Shown here in pieces: positions 31,022 through 41,111 of a DNA stretch of 64,000 nucleotides. The translations under genes were made by a program, and so were the position numbers. Position 1 is the first letter of the stretch. Each line of letters opens with the position of its first letter. Source of the DNA: Streptomyces sp. 11x1 (lineage in GTDB: Bacteria; Actinomycetota; Actinomycetes; Streptomycetales; Streptomycetaceae); contig NZ_CP122458.1 in the NCBI RefSeq assembly GCF_032598905.1, positions 5,791,001 through 5,855,000 of the forward strand, given 5' to 3'. The notes under the pieces are model-generated. The model did not search any database, was not told the origin of the DNA, and saw nothing but the letters and a program-made list of their open reading frames with translations.

Positions 31022-32036
31022 ATGCGCGCCGCTATCTATGTTCGCCTATCGCGTGAAACGGACGAGACGACTTCTCCTGAGCGCCAGAGAGCGGCTTGCG
31101 AGGCGTTGTGTGAGGCACGTGGCTGGAACGTCATGGTCGTCGAGGAAGACATCGATGTTTCCGGCTTCTCGCGAGGCCTCGACCGGCCGGGCCTGCAATG
31201 CATCCTGACCAGACTCGCCGAGCTGGACGTGATCGTGTTCTTCAAGATCGACCGGCTTGCACGCTCGACGCTCGACTTCGCGGAGATCATGCGACTCGCC
31301 GAGCATCAGAGTGTAGCGCTCGCGTCGGCGACAGAGCCGCTCGATCTCACGTCGTCCATGGGCCGGGCCATGGCGAAGGTGATCGCTGTCTTCGCCGAGC
31401 CGGAGTCCGACACCATGGGCATGCGGGTGTCCAGCGCGCACGAGCACCTGCGCCGCGAGGGGCGCTACACCGGCGGTCGGGTCCCGTACGGGTACATGGT
31501 CGTCCCCAACCCCAACGGGGCGGGCAAGGTCCTTGCGGTCAACGAGGACGAGGCCAAGACGATCAAGCGGTCGTGGAGCGGGTCCTGTCCAAGGACTCGC
31601 TCATGCAGATCATCAACGACCTCAACAAGGAGGGCATCCCGTCGCCGGGACACACCTCACGCCAGACCACGGGCAAGCGCAGCGACTCCAAGCAGTGGTA
31701 CACGACGACGCTGCGCAGCCTCCTGGGCAATCCCCAGTTGCTCGGCCAGGTCATCGAGGACGGAAAGCCGATCCTGCGGACGGACGGCCTGCCGCTGGTC
31801 AACCGGCCGCCGATCCTCGACACGGACACCTGGCAGACGCTCCAGGACGAGTTGGAGCGCCGGGCCAACCCCGGTGAGAAGCGCCGAGAGGGTACGTCGC
31901 TGCTCCGCGGCATCATGCACCGCGGAGTCTGCGGTGAGCGCATGTACACCTTCAGCGGGCGCAACGGTCAGCTTCGGTACCGGTGCATCGGCCCGCTGAA
32001 GTACCGCCAGCGGGCGGCCAAGGGGGAGGGAGCAGT
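31022..32036 (+). pseudogene. frameshifted serine recombinase (phage/ICE-type integrase)
   Basis: Starts MRAAIYVRLSRETDET with catalytic Ser10 and runs through the resolvase domain (FKIDRLARSTLDF, MAKVIAVFAE, SSAHEHLRREGRYTGGRVPYGY). At about 31573 the frame breaks (TIKR then SWSGS); one missing base restores a VVERVLSKDSL-type continuation, and the rest follows in the next frame: LMQIINDLNKEGIPSPGH, WYTTTLRSLLGNPQLLGQV, RYRCIGPLKYRQRAA. Beyond 32036 the C-terminal domain is lost. Remnant of a serine-integrase element. Bases 32037-32307 contain no convincing gene. Confidence 0.88.
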
Positions 32037-32307
32037 ACGCCAAGCCGGTCCCTCAGTGGAGAGAACAGGGTGTGGGCGCCCTCCGCGACCTTACGTCGCA
32101 GCGCCGCCCGCAGTTCCGACGCCGGCCGCCCCGCGGCACCCGCCGCGTACGCCGGGCGCCCTGACCTGGGCGGTCGCCAGGTGCGGGAGGGCACTGGGCG
32201 TCATAGGCTGACCTTCGGGGGCCTGTGCCTTCGTGGAACGAGGCACGGCCGGAATGGCCTGGCGGCCACGCGGTGAAGTCCGTGGCAGTGCAGTGGAGTG
32301 AGAGCCC

Positions 32308-33384
32308 GTGAACTCTCCGTACACCCTCACGTTCGACAGCTCTGCCGAGGCCGGGACGAGCAGGCTCGGCGGCAAGTGCGCCGCGCTCATCGTGATGACC
32401 CGTGCCGGTGCTCCGGTGCCGCCCGGGTTCGTGGTGACCATGGATGCCTTCGAGGCGCTGCTCGACCGCGGCGGGTTGCGCCGGGCCGTCGACGCCGCCC
32501 TTGCCGGGCTCGTCGCCGATCCGGGTGCTGCGGCGGCGCGCGGCGCCGAGATCCGCTGCATGGTGATTGACCAGCCCGTGCCCTCACCGGTCGCGTCGGC
32601 GGTGACGGCGGCGTACGAGGAGCTCTGCCGGGCCGTCGGCTGCCCGGATGTCGCGGTGGCCGTCCGGTCGAGCGCCGAAGTGGAGGACCTGCCCGAGGCG
32701 AGCTGCGCCGGTCAGCACGACACGTTCCTGTGGATCCGGGGTGCCGACGCCGTGCTCGGGGCCGTCCGGCGTTGCTGGGCGAGCCTGTGGAACGACCGCG
32801 CGATCATCTACCGAGCGGCCCGTGGGCTGCCCCAGACGGTGCTGCACATGGCGGTCGGGGTGCAGCAGATGGTCGATGCCCGTACCTCCGGCGCCGCCGT
32901 GACCGTCAACCCGGCTGACGGCGACCCTTCGAAAATACGGGTGGAGGCGATCTGGGGACTGGGGCAGCTCATGGTGTCCGGCGAGGTGACCCCGGACGCC
33001 TACCTGGTGGACAAGGTACTGCTCAGCACGGTGCGGACGACGGTGTCGCCGAAGCACCAGGAACTGGTTCCCGCCCCCGACGGGCACGGGCTCGCTCGGA
33101 GGGTGGTCGAGGAGGGCCGTCAGCAGGTCCCCTGCCTGGCTCAGGGGGAGGTCGTGGAGATCGCCCGCCTGGCCAAGACCGCCGAGCGGCAATACGGCTG
33201 CCCGCAGGACATCGAGTGGGCCGTCGACAAGCACCCGAACGGCTCCACGGATACGGGCGCCGTGAGACTGCTCCAGACGCGGCCCGAGACGGTCTGGAGC
33301 CGTCGGCCGAGGACACCTGCCCGGGCCAGCCACGGCGCGGGCGTCTCCAGCATCCTCGACACCCTCCTTCGACCTGGGAGGTAG
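32308..33384 (+). CDS. PEP synthase N-terminal-like ATP-grasp subunit (stand-alone), 358 aa
   Basis: Corresponds to the PPDK/PpsA ATP/pyruvate-binding N-terminal domain only. Signatures: LGGKCAALIVMTRAGAPVPPGF (about 17-38), VAVRSSAEVEDLPEASCAGQ (about 117-136), then VQQMVDARTSGAAVTVNP, WGLGQLMVSGEVTPDAYLVD, and DIEWAVDKHPNGS with LLQTRPETVWS. No mobile-His or PEP domain is attached. That matches the ~40-kDa subunit of phenylphosphate synthase or the ATP domain of rifampicin phosphotransferase. GTG 32308 has GGAG at 32295-32298. First gene of the 31-39 kb operon. Confidence 0.85.
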   Translation: MNSPYTLTFDSSAEAGTSRLGGKCAALIVMTRAGAPVPPGFVVTMDAFEALLDRGGLRRAVDAALAGLVADPGAAAARGAEIRCMVIDQPVPSPVASAVTAAYEELCRAVGCPDVAVAVRSSAEVEDLPEASCAGQHDTFLWIRGADAVLGAVRRCWASLWNDRAIIYRAARGLPQTVLHMAVGVQQMVDARTSGAAVTVNPADGDPSKIRVEAIWGLGQLMVSGEVTPDAYLVDKVLLSTVRTTVSPKHQELVPAPDGHGLARRVVEEGRQQVPCLAQGEVVEIARLAKTAERQYGCPQDIEWAVDKHPNGSTDTGAVRLLQTRPETVWSRRPRTPARASHGAGVSSILDTLLRPGR

Positions 33385-33478
33385 CCGATATGCCCCCCTC
33401 GTCTCGGCCGCCGTCGAAAGACTCGTCCACGCCGAGTCGGCATCGCCCGCCTGCGAGCCCTGTGAGGAGCACGTCAAG

Positions 33479-35293
33479 ATGACGGTCTCGCGCACAGCCT
33501 TCCCGAGCCCCTACGAGATGACCTCCCCTGCCGGTGCGGAGGGCTGGGAGCAGCTGTACCCGTACTACATGGTCTTCCAGCCCTGGCGGCGCTCGGCCGA
33601 GGAGGAACGCTTCTGGTTCTGCGACAGCCAGCACTGGCCCACCGTGGTCAAGCCGTTCGAGACGGTCGTCACCGAGCTCGCGTTCAAGGGCCAGGGCCAG
33701 TTCAACACCCGGCACTTCGTCGTACCGCCCTCGTACGGCGTCACGTTCCGCATCCACCAGGGCTACGTCTACCTGAGTCCGGTGGCCGCGCCGGAGAGCC
33801 GGATCCCTGCCCGAGCACAGCAGTTCCTGGAACGCGCCGGGTACTACTACGCGAACTGGGACAGGCTGCTGGAGAACTGGAAGGGCAAGGTCCTCGGCAC
33901 CATCCGTGAACTGGAGTCCATCAGCTTCGGCGAGCTACCGGAGGTCCAGCCGTACGAGGACATCGAAGCGGGGGTCGGCCTGGGCGCGGCCGATGCCCTG
34001 ATCGGCGGGTACGACCGGCTCCTCGCCCTGTGCCAGCGCGCCTTGCAGTACCACTTCGAGTTCCTGAACCTCGGCTACGCGGCCTACCTGGACTTCTTCC
34101 AGTTCTGCAAGCAACGGTTCCCGGGCATCCCGGACCAGGGCATCGCGGCGATGGTCACGGGCGTGGACATGGAGCTGTTCCGTCCGGACGAAGAGCTCAG
34201 GAAACTGGCAAGGCTCGCTGTCGAACTGGGCGTCGACAGGGCACTGACCGTGCCCGACCCCGGGGAGCACACTCTGACCGCCCTCAGCCGCGAGCCGGGC
34301 GGCCGCGACTGGCTCGACGCCTGGAACGCCGCCCGCGATCCCTGGTTCAACTTCACGTCGGGCAACGGCCTCTACAGCAGCGACCGGTACTGGAGGGACA
34401 CCCCCTCGCTTCCCCTGGGGTACATCCGCGACTACATCCTGCGCCTGCGGCGGGGCGAGGCCATCGACCGGCGCCTCGCCGAGCTCGCCGCCGAGCGCGA
34501 GCGGATCACCGGCGAGTACGCCGCGCTGCTCGACCCCCCGGCACGTGCCGACTTCGAGGCGAAACTGGGCCTCGCCCGCCAGGTCTACCCGTATGTGGAG
34601 GACCACAACTTCTACATCGAGCACTGGACGATGGGCGTCTTCTGGCGCAAGGCCAGGGAGCTGTCCGCCCTGCTGCACCGGGCGGGGTTCTGGCCCGAGC
34701 CCAACGACATGTTCTACCTCACGCGCGACGAAGTCCGGACCGCGCTGTTCGACCACGCGTCCAGCTGGGCCATCGGCGTCGAGCCGGCCGGCCCCGGTCA
34801 CTGGCCGGCGGAGGTGGAACGGCGACGCCGGATCGTGGCCGCGCTCGCACGGCAGCACCCCGAACCGGCGCTGAACGAACCGCCGCGAGCCATCACCGAG
34901 CCGTTCAGCGTCATGCTGTGGGGCATCACCAGCGAGCGCATCCGGTCGTGGCTGGCAGCCCCCGGCGACCTGGGCGACCTGACCGGCATGGCCGCCTCGC
35001 CGGGCGTCGCCGAAGGCACGGCCCGGGTGATCCGCAGCCCCGACGAGCTGGACCGCCTCCAGGAGGGCGACATCCTGGTCGCCCCGGTCACCGCGCCTAG
35101 CTGGACGCCGGCCTTCGTGAAGGTCCGCGCGACCGTCACCGACATCGGGGGAGTCATGTCCCACGCCGCCATCGTCTGCCGCGAGTACTCCCTGCCCGCC
35201 GTCACCGGGACGGGCTCGGCGTCCACCCGCATCAAGTCCGGCCGTCGGATCCGTGTGGACGGCACGGCCGGCACGGTCACCCTTCTCGACTGA
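33479..35293 (+). CDS. PEP-utilising mobile-His domain enzyme (large dikinase subunit), 604 aa
   Basis: A long, poorly characterised N-terminal region (about 1-480; PWRRSAEEERFWFCDSQHWP, then YHFEFLNLGYAAYLDFFQ) precedes a C-terminal mobile phosphohistidine domain: DLTGMAASPGVAEGTARVI, DELDRLQEGDILVAPVT, and GGVMSHAAIVCREYSLPAV with catalytic His562. The layout resembles the ~70-kDa subunit of phenylphosphate synthase, which takes phosphate via this His. The predicted reaction is ATP-driven transfer to a small hydroxyl compound, probably with the upstream ATP-grasp subunit. Substrate unknown. ATG 33479 has GAGGAG upstream. Confidence 0.82.
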   Translation: MTVSRTAFPSPYEMTSPAGAEGWEQLYPYYMVFQPWRRSAEEERFWFCDSQHWPTVVKPFETVVTELAFKGQGQFNTRHFVVPPSYGVTFRIHQGYVYLSPVAAPESRIPARAQQFLERAGYYYANWDRLLENWKGKVLGTIRELESISFGELPEVQPYEDIEAGVGLGAADALIGGYDRLLALCQRALQYHFEFLNLGYAAYLDFFQFCKQRFPGIPDQGIAAMVTGVDMELFRPDEELRKLARLAVELGVDRALTVPDPGEHTLTALSREPGGRDWLDAWNAARDPWFNFTSGNGLYSSDRYWRDTPSLPLGYIRDYILRLRRGEAIDRRLAELAAERERITGEYAALLDPPARADFEAKLGLARQVYPYVEDHNFYIEHWTMGVFWRKARELSALLHRAGFWPEPNDMFYLTRDEVRTALFDHASSWAIGVEPAGPGHWPAEVERRRRIVAALARQHPEPALNEPPRAITEPFSVMLWGITSERIRSWLAAPGDLGDLTGMAASPGVAEGTARVIRSPDELDRLQEGDILVAPVTAPSWTPAFVKVRATVTDIGGVMSHAAIVCREYSLPAVTGTGSASTRIKSGRRIRVDGTAGTVTLLD

Positions 35294-35318
35294 CCGGCCC
35301 CGTACGACAGGAGACGTC

Positions 35319-36032
35319 ATGACGCCCGACCGGGCGGCCCGCAATCCGCTGCCGACGCTGCCGCTCGCAGCCTCGGAGATTCCCCTGAGTGACCCCCTCC
35401 CTTCGCCCGTGCCGTTGACCGGCGTCCGGCGGGAGATATGGGACCGCGCCCTTCCCTACCTCGACGTGCGCGACAACGACGCCCATTCGCTGTACGCCTT
35501 CGCGCTGGCGGCCGCACTGCTGCACACCCTGCCAGGAGCACGGGAGGACGTCGTGCTGCCCGCCGTCCTCCTGCACGACACCGGCTGGAAGAAGGTCTAC
35601 CCTGCGGACATCCTGCCCGCCATCGCCGGGCGGGCCGGACCTGCCGGGCAGGAGACGATACGCAGGCACGAGTCCGAGGGTGCCGCCATCGCCGCCCGCA
35701 TCCTCGCCGATGTCGGCTACCCGGCGCGGGACACCGAGCGGATCGTCACCATTATCGACGGGCACGACACCCGCAGGGATGCCCTCGACCTGGACGACGC
35801 CGTGGTGAAGGACGCCGACAAGCTGTGGCGGCTGACCCCGCACGGCCTGCGGACCGTCGGTGCGTGGTTCGCCCTGGACCCGGGCCGGACACTGCGGTTC
35901 GTGGCGGCACGTACCTACGACCGGCTGCTCACCGAACCCGCCCGTGCCGTCGGTGCCGCATTCACCGTGCTGGCCCGTACCGATGTCAGCGTGCAGCGAA
36001 GCGGCCTGAACCCCCCATCACGCAGTGAATGA
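35319..36032 (+). CDS. HD-domain hydrolase in the dikinase operon, 237 aa
   Basis: Metal-dependent HD superfamily protein. NDAHSLYAFALAAALL has the first His, VVLPAVLLHDTGWKK the HD motif (about 84-98), and EGAAIAARILADVGY then TIIDGHDTRRD (second His) and VVKDADKLWRLT (final Asp). This set is typical of HD phosphohydrolases. Sitting between a phosphotransferase and a phosphatase regulator, it plausibly dephosphorylates a product or intermediate of the dikinase. ATG 35319 has AGGAG at 35309-35313. The last 8 bp overlap the next start, a coupling signal. Confidence 0.82.
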   Translation: MTPDRAARNPLPTLPLAASEIPLSDPLPSPVPLTGVRREIWDRALPYLDVRDNDAHSLYAFALAAALLHTLPGAREDVVLPAVLLHDTGWKKVYPADILPAIAGRAGPAGQETIRRHESEGAAIAARILADVGYPARDTERIVTIIDGHDTRRDALDLDDAVVKDADKLWRLTPHGLRTVGAWFALDPGRTLRFVAARTYDRLLTEPARAVGAAFTVLARTDVSVQRSGLNPPSRSE

Positions 36033-38544
36033 CTTATTTCGGTTGCTTATGGATATTTCCGGCGTGAGTCTTGACTGCATGGACGCCTATCCGCCACTCG
36101 GAGTGGTCGTGACCGACCGGCAGGGCCTCGTCGTCGGGTGGACGCCCGGAGTGGAACGCCTGCTCGGTCACACGAGCGCCGAGGCCCGCGGCCGGTCCGT
36201 GGCGGAGCTGCTGGACGCCCCCGTGCTCGCGGGCGGGGAGCCTGCTCGAGGTGAAGGGGCTGCCGAGCTCGGCGAACGGCATCCGGACGTGAGCGTATGC
36301 CACAAGGACGGGCACCGGCTGGCCGTGGCCGTCTCCCGCTACCGCCTCGCCCCGGGGGTGGACGGCATCGGAGGAGGACCCGGCACCGTCCTGCTCGTCG
36401 CCCCGCGGTCCGGGTCGGCGGCGGAGCGCCTGCGGCAGTCGCTGTCCGGCTGGGTTCTGCAGGACTCGCCCCTGGCCCTGACGGTGTACGACACCGATCT
36501 GCGCAGCGTGTGGCAGAGCGCCGCGATGCACCGCCTCAGCGGCCTGCCTGACGAGGAGCCATGCGGACGCCGGCTGACGGAGGTCTTCGCAGGCCCCGAC
36601 GCGGTGGAGTGGGAGGAGCGGATGCGGCTGGCCATGGCCACGGGAGAGGAGCAGGTCAGCGAGCTCAAGGGCACCGGCCTGACCGGCCTCGGATCCCGTG
36701 TCTTCAGTGTCTCGGCGACGCCGCTGCGGGACGCGGAGGCCCGTACGCTCGGAGTCTGTGCTCTCGTGAGTGATGTGACCGAGAGGCGCCGTGCCCGCGA
36801 GCGGCTCTCTCTGCTGAACGACGCGAGCCTGCACATCGGCAGCACCCTCGACATGGTACAGACCGCACGGGAGCTCACCGAGGTGGCCGTACCCAGGTTC
36901 ACCGACTTCGCCCGCGTGGACCTGCTGGACGTCATCCTCCAGGGCGACGAACCCGCTCCTGGGCCGCTGGCCGGCCCCGTGCGGCTGCGGCGCATCGCGG
37001 AACTGTTCCTGCTCGAGGGGGTCACCACGGAACAGCGCACCGTCGGCGAGGCGGACGTCTACCTCGCGAACTCGCCGACCGCCCTGTGCCTGGCCAGCGG
37101 CCGGCCGACGCTGTACCGGGACAACACCGCCCCGCCGATCCGCTCCTACTACGAGATCGACGCGACCCCCGAGCGGCGGGCGAGGGTCCGGCGGATGGGC
37201 CCGCACTCATGGATCATCGTGCCGGTGAAGGCCAGGGGCACGACCCTCGGCGTGGTGTGGTTCACCCGCATGCGGGAGACTCCGGAGAGCTTCGACGAGG
37301 ACGATCTTCCCCTCGCCGAGGACCTGGTGGCAAGGGCGGCGGTCTGCCTGGACAACGCCCGGCGCTTCACCCGCGAACGCGCCGCGGCTCTCACTCTGCA
37401 GCGCAGCCTGCTGCCGCAGCGGATGCCGGAGCAGTCGGCGGTGGAAGCCGCCTTCCGCTACCTCCCCGCCGAACAGCGTTACGGGGTGGGCGGCGACTGG
37501 TTCGACGTGATCCCGCTCTCCGGAGCCAGGGTCGCGCTGGTGGTCGGCGACGTGGTCGGCCACGGCATCCACGCGGCCGCCACGATGGGCCGGCTGCGCG
37601 CCGCCGTGCAAACCCTCGCCGATGTCGACCTCGCTCCCGACGAACTGCTCACCCGCCTCGACGACCTGGTCCTCCGGCTGTCGGCGGAGTCCGGGGCCGA
37701 CACGGAGCCGCCGGGGGCGGAGGCCGCCGGGGACATCGGGGCCACCTGCCTGTACGCGGTGTACGACCCGGTCTCCAGGCGCTGCTCCATGGCGCTTGCC
37801 GGCCACCCGCCGCCCGCCGTCGTCGGTCCGGACGGCACCGCTGAGTTCCTGGACGTCCCCGTGGGACCGCCACTCGGACTGGGTGGGCTGCCGTTCGAAT
37901 CGATGGACGTCACCCTCCAGGAAGGCAGCCTGCTCGCCCTTTACACCGACGGCTTGATCCATTCCGGCCACCGCGACCTCGGGGAGGGGCTTGAGGCCCT
38001 GCGGGAGGCGCTGGCCGTTCCGACGGGCACGCTGGACTCCCTGTGCGACCACGTCGTACGCGAGCTGCTGCCCGAGGGCCCCGCCGACGATGCGGCCCTG
38101 CTCCTGGTGCGGCCCCGGGCCCTGGACGCGCGCAGGGTCGCCGTGTGGGACGTGGAGGCCGACCCCGCCGAGGTGGCGCGGATACGGTCGAACGCCGTCC
38201 GTGCCCTGGCCGAGTGGGGGCTGGAAGAAGCCGCGTTCGTCACCGAACTGGTGGTCAGTGAACTGGTCACCAACGCCATCAGGTATGGCGACCCGCCGAT
38301 CCAGTTGCGGCTCATCCACGACCGCGGGCTGATCTGCGAGGTCTCCGACTCCAGCAGCACCGCACCGCATCTGCGGCGGGCTCGGGTGTTCGACGAGGGC
38401 GGTCGGGGGCTGTTGCTGGTCGCGCAGCTCACGGAGCGCTGGGGCGCCCGGCAGACGGCGGCCGGCAAGACGATCTGGTGTGAGCAAACCCTGGCCGCGG
38501 CCGACGGCCCGCTCCTCTCCCTGGAGGGAACTGCCGCCATCTGA
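36025..38544 (+). CDS. PAS-PAS-GAF-SpoIIE phosphatase with HATPase domain, 839 aa
   Basis: Domain order: PAS1 (about 20-110), PAS2 (about 140-250), GAF (about 265-450), PP2C/SpoIIE (about 465-690: VGGDWFDVIPLSGARVALVVGDVVGHG) and an anti-sigma-like HATPase (about 700-835: ELVVSELVTNAIRYG, GGRGLLLVAQL). Such proteins dephosphorylate STAS anti-sigma antagonists and bind sigma factors. The GTG at 36025 overlaps the HD gene and is followed by a TTA leucine codon at 36034-36036, suggesting bldA dependence; if translation starts at ATG 36049 the codon is excluded. Ribosome binding sites are poor for both. Confidence 0.88.
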   Translation: MNDLFRLLMDISGVSLDCMDAYPPLGVVVTDRQGLVVGWTPGVERLLGHTSAEARGRSVAELLDAPVLAGGEPARGEGAAELGERHPDVSVCHKDGHRLAVAVSRYRLAPGVDGIGGGPGTVLLVAPRSGSAAERLRQSLSGWVLQDSPLALTVYDTDLRSVWQSAAMHRLSGLPDEEPCGRRLTEVFAGPDAVEWEERMRLAMATGEEQVSELKGTGLTGLGSRVFSVSATPLRDAEARTLGVCALVSDVTERRRARERLSLLNDASLHIGSTLDMVQTARELTEVAVPRFTDFARVDLLDVILQGDEPAPGPLAGPVRLRRIAELFLLEGVTTEQRTVGEADVYLANSPTALCLASGRPTLYRDNTAPPIRSYYEIDATPERRARVRRMGPHSWIIVPVKARGTTLGVVWFTRMRETPESFDEDDLPLAEDLVARAAVCLDNARRFTRERAAALTLQRSLLPQRMPEQSAVEAAFRYLPAEQRYGVGGDWFDVIPLSGARVALVVGDVVGHGIHAAATMGRLRAAVQTLADVDLAPDELLTRLDDLVLRLSAESGADTEPPGAEAAGDIGATCLYAVYDPVSRRCSMALAGHPPPAVVGPDGTAEFLDVPVGPPLGLGGLPFESMDVTLQEGSLLALYTDGLIHSGHRDLGEGLEALREALAVPTGTLDSLCDHVVRELLPEGPADDAALLLVRPRALDARRVAVWDVEADPAEVARIRSNAVRALAEWGLEEAAFVTELVVSELVTNAIRYGDPPIQLRLIHDRGLICEVSDSSSTAPHLRRARVFDEGGRGLLLVAQLTERWGARQTAAGKTIWCEQTLAAADGPLLSLEGTAAI

Positions 38545-38569
38545 CGCGCCGTACGCGGCGCGTGACGAC

Positions 38570-39540
38570 GACACGGAGGGGTTGGCCCAGATCGCCGAGT
38601 TGCTGGAGAAGGTGGCCGACGAGGAGGCCCCGCTGCTGGACATCGAGGCGACCCGCAGGCGTCTCAGTCACGGCCTGGACCTGACGAGCCGACTCACGGT
38701 CGGCGAGTGGTTGGACATGTGGCCGGCGGGCAAGAAGGGGCGGCAGAGCGCCATCAGTCGCGACGAGAGCGACATCCGGGTGCACCTCAAACCGCGGATC
38801 GGGCACCTGCGGCTCGACCGCCTGCGGGTCACTCACCTGTCGGAGATGTTCGAGGCCATCGCCGAGGCCAACGTCGAGATCGCGGAGGGCGACGCCGCCC
38901 GCCGCAAGGCGTTCGAGGACCTTGCCCAGATCCCCTGGAAGGGGCGCGAGCACGGTGCCCGCCGCAAGGCGATGAAGGCGGCCATCGCCGAGATGGAGCC
39001 CTACCGCCGCATCGTGGGCCCGGCCACGCGGCAGCGCGTCCGCTCCACGCCGCGGGCCGCGCTGAACGCCGCGATCGCCCAGCAGCTGATCACCTTCAAC
39101 CCGGCAGCCACGTCGAGTTGAAGGCGGGCAAGCGGCCCAAGGCTCTCGTGTGGACCGAGAAGCGCATCCTGCACTGGAAGCGCACCGGCGGGAAGCCGTC
39201 GTCGGTGATGGTGTGGACGCCGGACCGCACTGGCCTCTTCCTCGATCACGTCGCGGAGGACCGCCTGTACGCGCTGTTCCACTTGATCGCCTTCTGCGGA
39301 TTGCGACGAGGCGAGGCGTGCGGGCAGAAGTGGACCGACACCAACTTCGATGCCGGGCTCATTACGGTTGTCAAGCAACTTGTCGTGGACGGCTGGGAGG
39401 TGTACGAGGACGACCCCAAGACCGACGCCGGCGCCCGGACGATCGCGCTGGACACCGACACGGTCCAGGCCCTCAAGCGGCACCGCGCCCAGCAGGACAA
39501 GGACCGCGAGGAATGGGGGGGGGGACCGCCTGGACGATGA
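38570..39540 (+). pseudogene. decayed tyrosine recombinase (integrase) with frameshift and truncation
   Basis: First frame: LAQIAELLEKVADEEAPLL, a SAM-like region LTVGEWLDMWPAGKKGRQS, RPRIGH-type LKPRIGHLRLDRLRVTHLSEM, and PATRQRVRSTPRAALNAAIA, ending at 39121 in NPAATSS. Deleting no domain but adding one C near 39107 gives NPAAHVELKAGKRPKALVW and continues: YALFHLIAFCGLRRGEACGQKW (first catalytic Arg in LRRGE), then DAGARTIALDTDTVQALK. It stops at 39540 after a run of ten G; the distal catalytic His, Arg and Tyr are missing. Lacks a clear start. Element remnant. Confidence 0.87.
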
Positions 39541-39686
39541 GGGAACCGTTCACGCGCGACACCTTTCGATTCGGCCGAACGTCCAATTTGCCCGATCGTT
39601 CCCCCTGGCAGGGTTCCGGTCCTATTGGATGTCTATTCATTCCGATGAGTGGCTGGAATTCAGATTTGCGGCAGCGGTTCCGAAGA

Positions 39687-41111
39687 ATGCGAACCGTGCA
39701 CCCTCCCACCCAGGCCGACGCCGCTGAACCGGTCGCCCCGTCCATCGCCCCGTCCGTCTCGCCGCAGGGCACCACACTCGGCTACGCCCTCTTCGCCACG
39801 CGCTGGCTCCAGGCGCCGCTGTACTTCGGTCTGGTCGCGGCGCAGGGGGTGTACGTCTACAAGTTCTTCAACGAGCTGTGGACGTTAATCGTCCGCTGCG
39901 TGAGCGGGAGCGCCACCGAGACGTATGTGATGCTCGCCGTGCTCAAACTGGTCGACGTCGTCATGATCGCCAATCTGCTGATCATGACGATCGTCGGCGG
40001 CTACGAGACCTTCGTCTCCCGCATCGGCCTCCAGGGCCACCGTGACCAGCCCGAATGGCTGTCGCACGTCAATTCCAACGTGCTGAAGGTCAAGCTCGCC
40101 ACCGCCATCGTGGGCATCTCCTCGGTGCATCTGCTCCAGATGTTCGTGGACGTCCACCACACCTCCCAGCACGCGCTGCTATGGGGCACGGTGATCCACA
40201 TGGCCTTCATCGCCTCGGCGGTGCTCCTGGCGTACATGTCGGGGCCGATGCTGCGCGAGGACAAGGGCCACGGCTCCCACCACGACCCGTCCGACGACCC
40301 GAGGCCGCCGAAGAGCCCGCGCGGGCCCGCCGAGCCGACGGAACGGAGCGAGCCGACGGAGCGGACTGAGCCGGCGGCGGCCACCCCCGTGATGTCCCGG
40401 GCGCCGCTGCCGATCCCGGCCCAGGCGACGTCCCCCGAGACCCGCTTCACGCGGGGCGGGACGCGGCTGGTGCAGTACGAGACCTGGCGCGCGCCGTACA
40501 CGGCCGGGAGCGAGGGCGGTCTCGGTGCCGGGGGCGGGACCGGGGTCGAGGGGCGGGTACGGGCGGCCGGGTTCCCGGCGCGGAAGCTGCTGGAGGAGTT
40601 CGACGAGGGGCACCCGCGCTCCTTCGACCGGCGGCTGCTGGCCCGGCTGGGCACCCTGGACTTCCTCGGCACCGGACGGAACGTGGTGTTCGTCGGCGCC
40701 CCCGGCACCGGCAAGACGCATCTCGCGATCGGTCTCGGCGTACGGGCCTGCCAGGCCGGACACCGGGTGATGTTCGCGACGGCGACGGAGTGGGCGGCCC
40801 GGCTGGCCGGGGCACGGGCCGAGGGCAGGCTCGCCGAGGAACTGTCCGCGCTCGACGCCTGCCCCCTGCTGATCGTCGACGAGGTCGGCTACCTCCCCTT
40901 CGACACGGACACCGCCCGGCTCTTCTTCCAGCTGATCGCCCACCGCTACGAGCGGGCCTCGCTGATCGTGACCAGCGACCGCCCGCTCGGCCGCTGGGAG
41001 GAGATCTTCGGCGGGGCCGCCCCGGCGATGGTGGACCGCCTCGCGCACCACGCCGAGATCGTCCTCCTCGAAGGGGACAGCTACCGGCTGCGCACTACTT
41101 CAGCAGGCTGA
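39687..41111 (+). CDS. UPF0114/YqhA-type membrane domain fused to IstB-type ATPase, 474 aa
   Basis: Residues about 25-195 are an UPF0114 membrane protein: four hydrophobic segments such as LYFGLVAAQGVYVYKFF and VVMIANLLIMTIVGGYETFV, and an intact VSRIGLQGHRDQPEWLSHV. After a Pro/Ser/Thr-rich linker (about 200-290) comes an IS21 IstB-like AAA+ domain: VFVGAPGTGKTHLAIGLGVR (Walker A, about 337), CPLLIVDEVGYLPFDTDTA (Walker B, about 396), IVTSDRPLGRWEE and VLLEGDSYRLR. No istA transposase is adjacent. It has a TTA codon at 39885. ATG 39687 has a weak GAAG. Bases 39541-39686 are AT-richer non-coding. Confidence 0.8.
   Translation: MRTVHPPTQADAAEPVAPSIAPSVSPQGTTLGYALFATRWLQAPLYFGLVAAQGVYVYKFFNELWTLIVRCVSGSATETYVMLAVLKLVDVVMIANLLIMTIVGGYETFVSRIGLQGHRDQPEWLSHVNSNVLKVKLATAIVGISSVHLLQMFVDVHHTSQHALLWGTVIHMAFIASAVLLAYMSGPMLREDKGHGSHHDPSDDPRPPKSPRGPAEPTERSEPTERTEPAAATPVMSRAPLPIPAQATSPETRFTRGGTRLVQYETWRAPYTAGSEGGLGAGGGTGVEGRVRAAGFPARKLLEEFDEGHPRSFDRRLLARLGTLDFLGTGRNVVFVGAPGTGKTHLAIGLGVRACQAGHRVMFATATEWAARLAGARAEGRLAEELSALDACPLLIVDEVGYLPFDTDTARLFFQLIAHRYERASLIVTSDRPLGRWEEIFGGAAPAMVDRLAHHAEIVLLEGDSYRLRTTSAG

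Follow-up and report, generated by a model that had tools for sequence, protein, structure and literature searches.

A Streptomyces operon combining a CreHI-type two-component dikinase, an HD phosphohydrolase and a putative partner-switch regulator

Known phenol dikinases and the layout of the locus

The two-component dikinases HpeHI, CreHI and PpsAB phosphorylate phenols via a histidine of their swivel domain (PMC12167813, PMC9618137), and the reaction of HpeHI releases AMP (PMC12167813). The swivel motif has been defined as T/SxxGGxxxH, with Met at position -2 and Ser or Cys at -1 (PMC12167813), a Ser before the catalytic His being reported for CreH and PpsA (PMC12167813, PMC9618137). CreHI and CreD belong to the 4-cresol pathway of Corynebacterium glutamicum, where the gene order is creJ-I-H-G-F-E-D-C (table in PMC7764795). 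PpsAB is the phenylphosphate synthase of anaerobic phenol degradation and is linked to phenylphosphate carboxylase, and HpeHI and AcvAB are hydroxyphenylethanone kinases, the hpe clusters having a biotin-dependent carboxylase and another phosphatase. The ATP-grasp and swivel His domains are shared with rifampicin phosphotransferase (Rph) and PEP synthase, which are single chains with a different substrate region. As for the kind of regulator discussed below, OsaC and Rv1364c are described as general-stress phosphatases (PMC12143880), and OsaC is reported to modulate sigma-B (PMC10117811).

The locus analysed here lies in Streptomyces sp. 11x1 (NZ_CP122458.1; host genome of 10.67 Mb), within a stretch of 64,000 nt that we call the window and whose coordinates are used throughout. 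Its four genes are contiguous, intact and all on the + strand, between broken integrase remnants (L numbers denote loci and G numbers genomes):

31022..32046, + strand: serine integrase remnant in two frames, 3'-truncated; a flank outside the shared unit (PHROG 95, homology limits)
32047..38731, + strand: longest continuous stretch shared with close relatives, at about 95% identity (in L020 to 38725, in L137 to 38731)
32308..33384, + strand: small subunit, a stand-alone ATP-grasp domain, CreI/HpeI/PpsB-like (PF01326, E 7e-93)
33479..35293, + strand: large subunit, substrate-binding region and swivel domain with phosphocarrier His562, CreH/HpeH/PpsA-like (NF006150, PF00391, motif, tree)
35319..36032, + strand: HD-domain phosphohydrolase, clade HDa; a paralogue of the CreD-position HD protein (PF01966, E 1.5e-7; conserved residues, tree)
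36025..38544, + strand: putative PAS-GAF-PPM(SpoIIE)-HATPase partner-switch regulator (Pfam, 3ke6 match, tree)
38546..39540, + strand: tyrosine integrase remnant in two frames, truncated, its 5' part common to L020 and L137 (PHROG 1)

The list of open reading frames and the Pfam domains (PPDK_N in gene 1, the PEP-utilizers mobile domain at residues 528-598 of the large subunit, HD in gene 3 and PAS/GAF/SpoIIE/HATPase_c_2 in gene 4) confirm the four genes and domains of the original prediction, and the operon does appear intact, as had been proposed: the frames are unbroken and co-directional, and dN/dS ranges from 0.24 to 0.60 in 28 of 28 gene comparisons between the window and seven relatives (for the HD gene of L019, over its first 173 residues only). 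The operon is thus under purifying selection and looks maintained. The last 8 bases of the HD frame are also the first of the SpoIIE frame, and the HD gene has an alternative in-frame GTG at 35253, from where the frame is open too. Scanning for promoters and terminators yielded no signal better than chance and no promoter-like site. The tRNA-Arg (gcg) called by ARAGORN at 33584-33675, within the large-subunit gene, is probably a false positive.

Both integrases had been put forward as dead borders of the operon. Frameshifted they are, since PHROG 95 matches the serine recombinase over positions 21-268 in one frame and 269-410 (of 651) in another, with the 3' part missing, and PHROG 1 matches the truncated tyrosine integrase over positions 157-254 and 264-358 (of 611), split over two frames. 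The serine recombinase remnant, however, lies outside the shared unit: the three closest relatives become homologous to the window only from 32047 on (L020 and L137) or, in direct orientation, from 32130 on (L019, which carries its match to 32047-32161 inverted, some 500 bases off). These three have as much as about 530 bases of upstream DNA in common. At the other end the tyrosine integrase remnant is shared to 38725 in L020, and to 38731 and again over 39045-39129 in L137; homology to L019 stops at 38578, leaving it without the integrase part. L019 also has a divergent open frame upstream. In the window the integrase remnant is followed by an open frame (39150-41111) with a membrane-protein-like stretch, read by eye, and another that we take, also by eye, to be an IstB-like ATPase.

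The kinase, the HD protein and the regulator

The large subunit is of the PRK08296 type (NF006150, 929 bits against a cut-off of 650). Its motif TDIGGVMSH fits the dikinase swivel motif with Met at -2 and Ser at -1, the latter as in CreH and PpsA, and His562 does not vary among 47 aligned sequences. The small subunit keeps 58 of the 58 columns in which the other 89 rows are at least 98% conserved, and its best solved relative is 9goj (E 6.5e-74), which is HpeI (PMC12167813). Judged by sequence, the pair is a member of the known family of two-component phenolic dikinases (PpsAB, CreHI, HpeHI), and by analogy it is predicted to phosphorylate phenols at the expense of ATP.

Within this family the pair is closest to the Cre type. 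In a quick tree of 92 large subunits, with SH-aLRT support only and a long-branch warning, the kinases of cre-type clusters form one clade (87 rows, SH-aLRT 100) that includes ours, and the seven four-gene rows form one group (SH-aLRT 100) beside other actinobacterial rows. A second, equally quick tree of 42 rows, also with SH-aLRT only, gives the same picture and places G244, G290 and G474 in the four-gene group as well; in both trees the reference rows were typed as Cre, Pps or Hpe/Acv by gene neighbourhood, not by accessions of characterised proteins. The two-subunit split had been likened to phenylphosphate synthase, and this holds as sequence homology, the large subunit being 46% identical to a homologue beside phenylphosphate carboxylase genes on an Azoarcus plasmid; it is closer still to the kinases of cre-type clusters (58-63% identity among the best 80 of 551 confirmed loci). 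Hpe-like Streptomyces kinases (G254, G262, G350), by contrast, are only 47% identical, and the HD gene was not found in those genomes. The proposed likeness to a split rifampicin phosphotransferase fails, with 225 and 112 bits for the NCBIfam Rph model against a cut-off of 999; on the large subunit this model matches only the swivel domain, and the two chains are separate. PEP synthase is likewise rejected, TIGR01418 giving 279 and 94 bits against a cut-off of 740 and only PF01326 and PF00391 being found. Elsewhere, small and large subunits do occur in one continuous frame (L017 8421-11351, L018 1440-4379 and L022 8822-11806) and as annotated single proteins with both domains (P0149 and P0160, of 987 and 1012 residues), fusions that restore the one-chain order of Rph.

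Five positions of the four-gene clade depart from otherwise conserved residues, compared with none to three in six other groups, because of which the substrate may not be 4-cresol; the clade's long stem may also explain these departures.

The place of the HD protein is best seen against a Rhodococcus ruber plasmid, where the order is HD, IclR regulator, P450, small subunit, large subunit, short-chain dehydrogenase, ferredoxin, reductase, HD, aldehyde dehydrogenase, adjoining a toluene monooxygenase. From P450 to aldehyde dehydrogenase this is the creJ-I-H-G-F-E-D-C order, so that the second HD protein (HDb) occupies the CreD position, an assignment made by gene order and not by comparison with a CreD sequence. 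The window HD groups with the other one, HDa: in a quick tree, from which two short rows were left out and whose rows were assigned by their distance from two references, its path is 1.84 to the HDa reference and 4.67 to the HDb reference, which makes it a paralogue and not an orthologue of the CreD-position protein. H56, H86-D87, H117, H149-D150 and D167 are invariant in 46 sequences, and the window HD agrees at all 17 columns whose conservation reaches 97% in both HD groups (labelled here by best-matching query, not by the tree). The AlphaFold model is all helical (pLDDT 90.9). A sequence search of the PDB with the window HD returned nanobodies only, judged chance matches, and the HDb reference gave one weak HD match, 2pq7. 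HDa is found as a second HD protein beside the CreD-position one in many cre-type clusters (e.g., L101 8086-8697), and its role is apparently undescribed in the accessible part of the literature on these clusters.

The regulator carries the motifs GGDW, GDVVGHG, YTDG and DDAALL and an N-box, ELVTNAIRYG, which we take to be intact PPM and HATPase signatures. Its closest solved relative is 3ke6, of Rv1364c (E 7.8e-21), and it resembles OsaC/Rv1364c-type regulators in combining PAS (and GAF) sensing with a PPM phosphatase and an anti-sigma-type HATPase domain. It differs from them in being encoded in a small-molecule kinase operon, and Pfam detected no STAS domain in the protein. This SpoIIE protein, first suggested to act as a phosphatase on a small molecule, is better read as a partner-switch regulator, that is, a putative protein phosphatase with an anti-sigma-type kinase.

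Since 197 of 199 genomes of the genus have a SpoIIE-type match at E 1e-120, presence alone is uninformative and therefore only the regulator tree was used. In these genomes two operon-linked copies, besides the window's own, exceed 65% identity to it, the next best match being 60% identical. The nine operon-linked copies are monophyletic (100/100), apart from the nearest unlinked ones tested, in a topology resembling that of the kinases. Given this monophyly, and since G474 keeps kinase and regulator together, the regulator joined this kinase clade and has since been inherited with it. In S. brasiliensis, a full cre cluster has another SpoIIE-type regulator some 5 kb away on the opposite strand (L072 12618-14966); this one shows 52% identity to the window's and groups outside the operon-linked copies.

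Gene neighbourhood and distribution

The gene content of related kinase loci was tabulated for 84 of them, the best 80 of 551 confirmed loci by similarity to the query, plus four more. P450 is present in 76 of the 84, short-chain dehydrogenase in 78 and aldehyde dehydrogenase in 75. The set that marks a Cre pathway, i.e., linked P450, electron transfer chain and dehydrogenases, is missing from the six four-gene Streptomyces loci among the 84, where P450, short-chain dehydrogenase and aldehyde dehydrogenase each score 0/6; one of these, L022, has a reductase match of 127 residues at the very edge of the locus, which does not reach the gene-content threshold. The other two loci without P450 (L037 and L080) both end at contig ends. 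Compared with Cre, the four-gene loci lack P450, ferredoxin, reductase, dehydrogenases and IclR regulator, their HD protein is HDa and not of the CreD-position clade, and the PAS-GAF-PPM-HATPase regulator is an addition; they resemble it in the large and small subunits, the HD family and the Ser before the catalytic His. Elsewhere in the window's own genome, the best CreJ-like P450 reaches no more than 35% identity, compared with 75% for a genome that does carry a cre cluster. One further stretch (L173, of G724) holds a cre-like cluster with P450, dehydrogenases and HDa and with no CreD-position HD, beside which an opposite-strand kinase is only 48% identical to the window's.

The pairing of this kinase with HD and SpoIIE partners had been thought unusual. 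As far as HD is concerned it is not, because a relative of it, HDa and HDb being cross-matched and not separated in the table, lies nearby in each of the 84 loci; what is unusual instead is the absence of the oxidative enzymes. In a sample of 199 genomes of the genus, the HD gene and the full-length kinase go together, both being present in the same five genomes; a sixth kinase match is partial (34%). No HD lies near the kinases of about 52% identity (six loci inspected) or near the hpe-like ones (three). As separate observations, one of the former loci carries Rieske, HAD and extradiol-dioxygenase-like genes instead, and one of the latter acyl-CoA-synthetase-like and biotin carboxylase genes.

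Ten loci of the four-gene clade were examined (window, L015, L016, L019, L020, L021, L022, L137, L139 and L147), with apparently identical genomes counted once (L136/L019, L138/L022 and, outside the clade set, L140/L072). The regulator is present in nine and the HD gene in eight, one locus having neither, so the neighbours do recur together in other genomes, the outcome on which the original prediction had been made to depend. In L019 the HD gene is split over two frames. G474, from another genus, has small subunit, large subunit and regulator with no HD in its whole genome, and G290 has the kinase alone, the regulator being absent and HD missing genome-wide; the HD protein is therefore not indispensable. 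Seven loci (window, L015, L016 and L019-L022) have no genes in common beyond the four (blastp at 1e-12 over at least 80 residues), their surroundings being otherwise unrelated, and a Pfam scan of ten flanking proteins in four loci found no shared partner and no biosynthetic genes standing out.

Kinases of any of these types occur in 13 of 392 genomes of the genus, 3 of 394 in a family draw and 21 of 394 in a class draw (the draws overlap), and 7 of the 13 kinase-bearing genus genomes belong to this clade. G254 has two equal-scoring hpe-like kinase copies (C1:311371 and C1:11227666) one towards each end of its 11.5 Mb chromosome, and these probably belong to terminal inverted repeats. A search of the open literature, to which most subscription papers do not belong, found no paper on this operon, and PMC12167813 and PMC9618137 make no mention of Streptomyces.

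Possible function

We propose, at about even chances, that a CreHI-type dikinase and an HD phosphohydrolase would phosphorylate a phenol reversibly and that a partner-switching regulator would tie this to a stress-type sigma-factor switch. What was observed is the family, the conserved catalytic residues, the gene linkage, the shared descent and the absence of linked oxidative genes; from these we infer the substrate class, the direction of the HD reaction, the target of the regulator and the purpose. If the enzyme works like HpeHI and PpsAB, the small subunit would present ATP and His562 of the swivel domain would take its beta-phosphate, ATP yielding AMP and phosphate; the phosphoryl group would then be transferred to the hydroxyl group of a phenolic substrate in the large subunit. 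The aryl phosphate so formed is most likely hydrolysed by the HD protein, which would set the phenolic compound free. Since the neighbourhood offers no oxidative pathway, the probable role of the pair is to trap, mask or detoxify its compound reversibly and not to degrade it. A kinase and a phosphatase acting simultaneously on one compound would waste ATP, and the two activities would therefore have to be separated in time, or the HD substrate be a different one. The PAS/GAF-controlled PPM phosphatase and the HATPase kinase, in turn, most likely set the phosphorylation of a STAS protein encoded elsewhere, and through it the sigma-factor switch.

The kinase could instead start phenol degradation as in the Cre pathway, with the later steps carried out by unlinked enzymes of the same genome. 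We find this rather unlikely, even though homologues of known function do start phenol catabolism (PMC12167813, PMC9618137), nearly all relatives outside the clade in the 84 loci (the best 80 of 551 plus four) sit with oxidative genes, and eight of the ten clade loci have kept HD. Against it stand the absence from the six four-gene loci of linked genes for P450s, dehydrogenases and aldehyde dehydrogenases, the distance of the best P450 in the genome from the CreJ type, and seven neighbourhoods with nothing but the four genes in common; the missing oxidative steps could nevertheless come from unrelated enzymes encoded elsewhere. The sporadic distribution and the changing surroundings would also suit an accessory trait such as resistance, the kinase inactivating a phenolic antibiotic of the host or of a competitor by a logic comparable to that of rifampicin phosphotransferase, with which it shares the mechanism class (PMC12167813). 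This seems improbable to us, as the substrate-binding region is like that of simple-phenol kinases and not that of Rph, a co-encoded phosphatase would reverse the inactivation, and among the ten flanking proteins scanned in four loci no biosynthetic genes stood out.

Doubt may also be raised about the HD protein itself. Nucleotides are frequent substrates of HD phosphohydrolases, and the protein might act on some phosphate ester other than the kinase product, for instance on the AMP that this kinase type, as known for HpeHI (PMC12167813), releases; the survival of kinase and regulator in G474 without HD would agree with this. We hold it to be quite improbable, given that HD paralogues accompany this type of kinase in all 84 loci, one of them at the CreD position, and that none lies at those inspected kinase loci that are of the hpe type or otherwise more distant.

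Returning to reversible phosphorylation coupled to a regulator, its furthest extension would be a writer-eraser-reader device, in which an aryl phosphate serves as a small-molecule signal: the dikinase would be its writer and the HD protein its eraser, and the regulator would sense its level through the PAS/GAF domains and switch a sigma factor accordingly. This is a long shot; if true, a catabolic kinase would have been turned into a signalling kinase.

The kinase family itself is known; what is new is the combination of a cre-type kinase, an HD protein and a regulator without the usual oxidative genes. The 2025 work on HpeHI considers the purpose of phosphorylating these phenols unclear and calls for homologues in other processes (PMC12167813). 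A clade that has kinase and phosphatase, has gained a sensor-regulator and has no adjacent degradation genes offers a natural test of whether the phosphorylation of phenols has a purpose of its own, be it trapping, detoxification or signalling.
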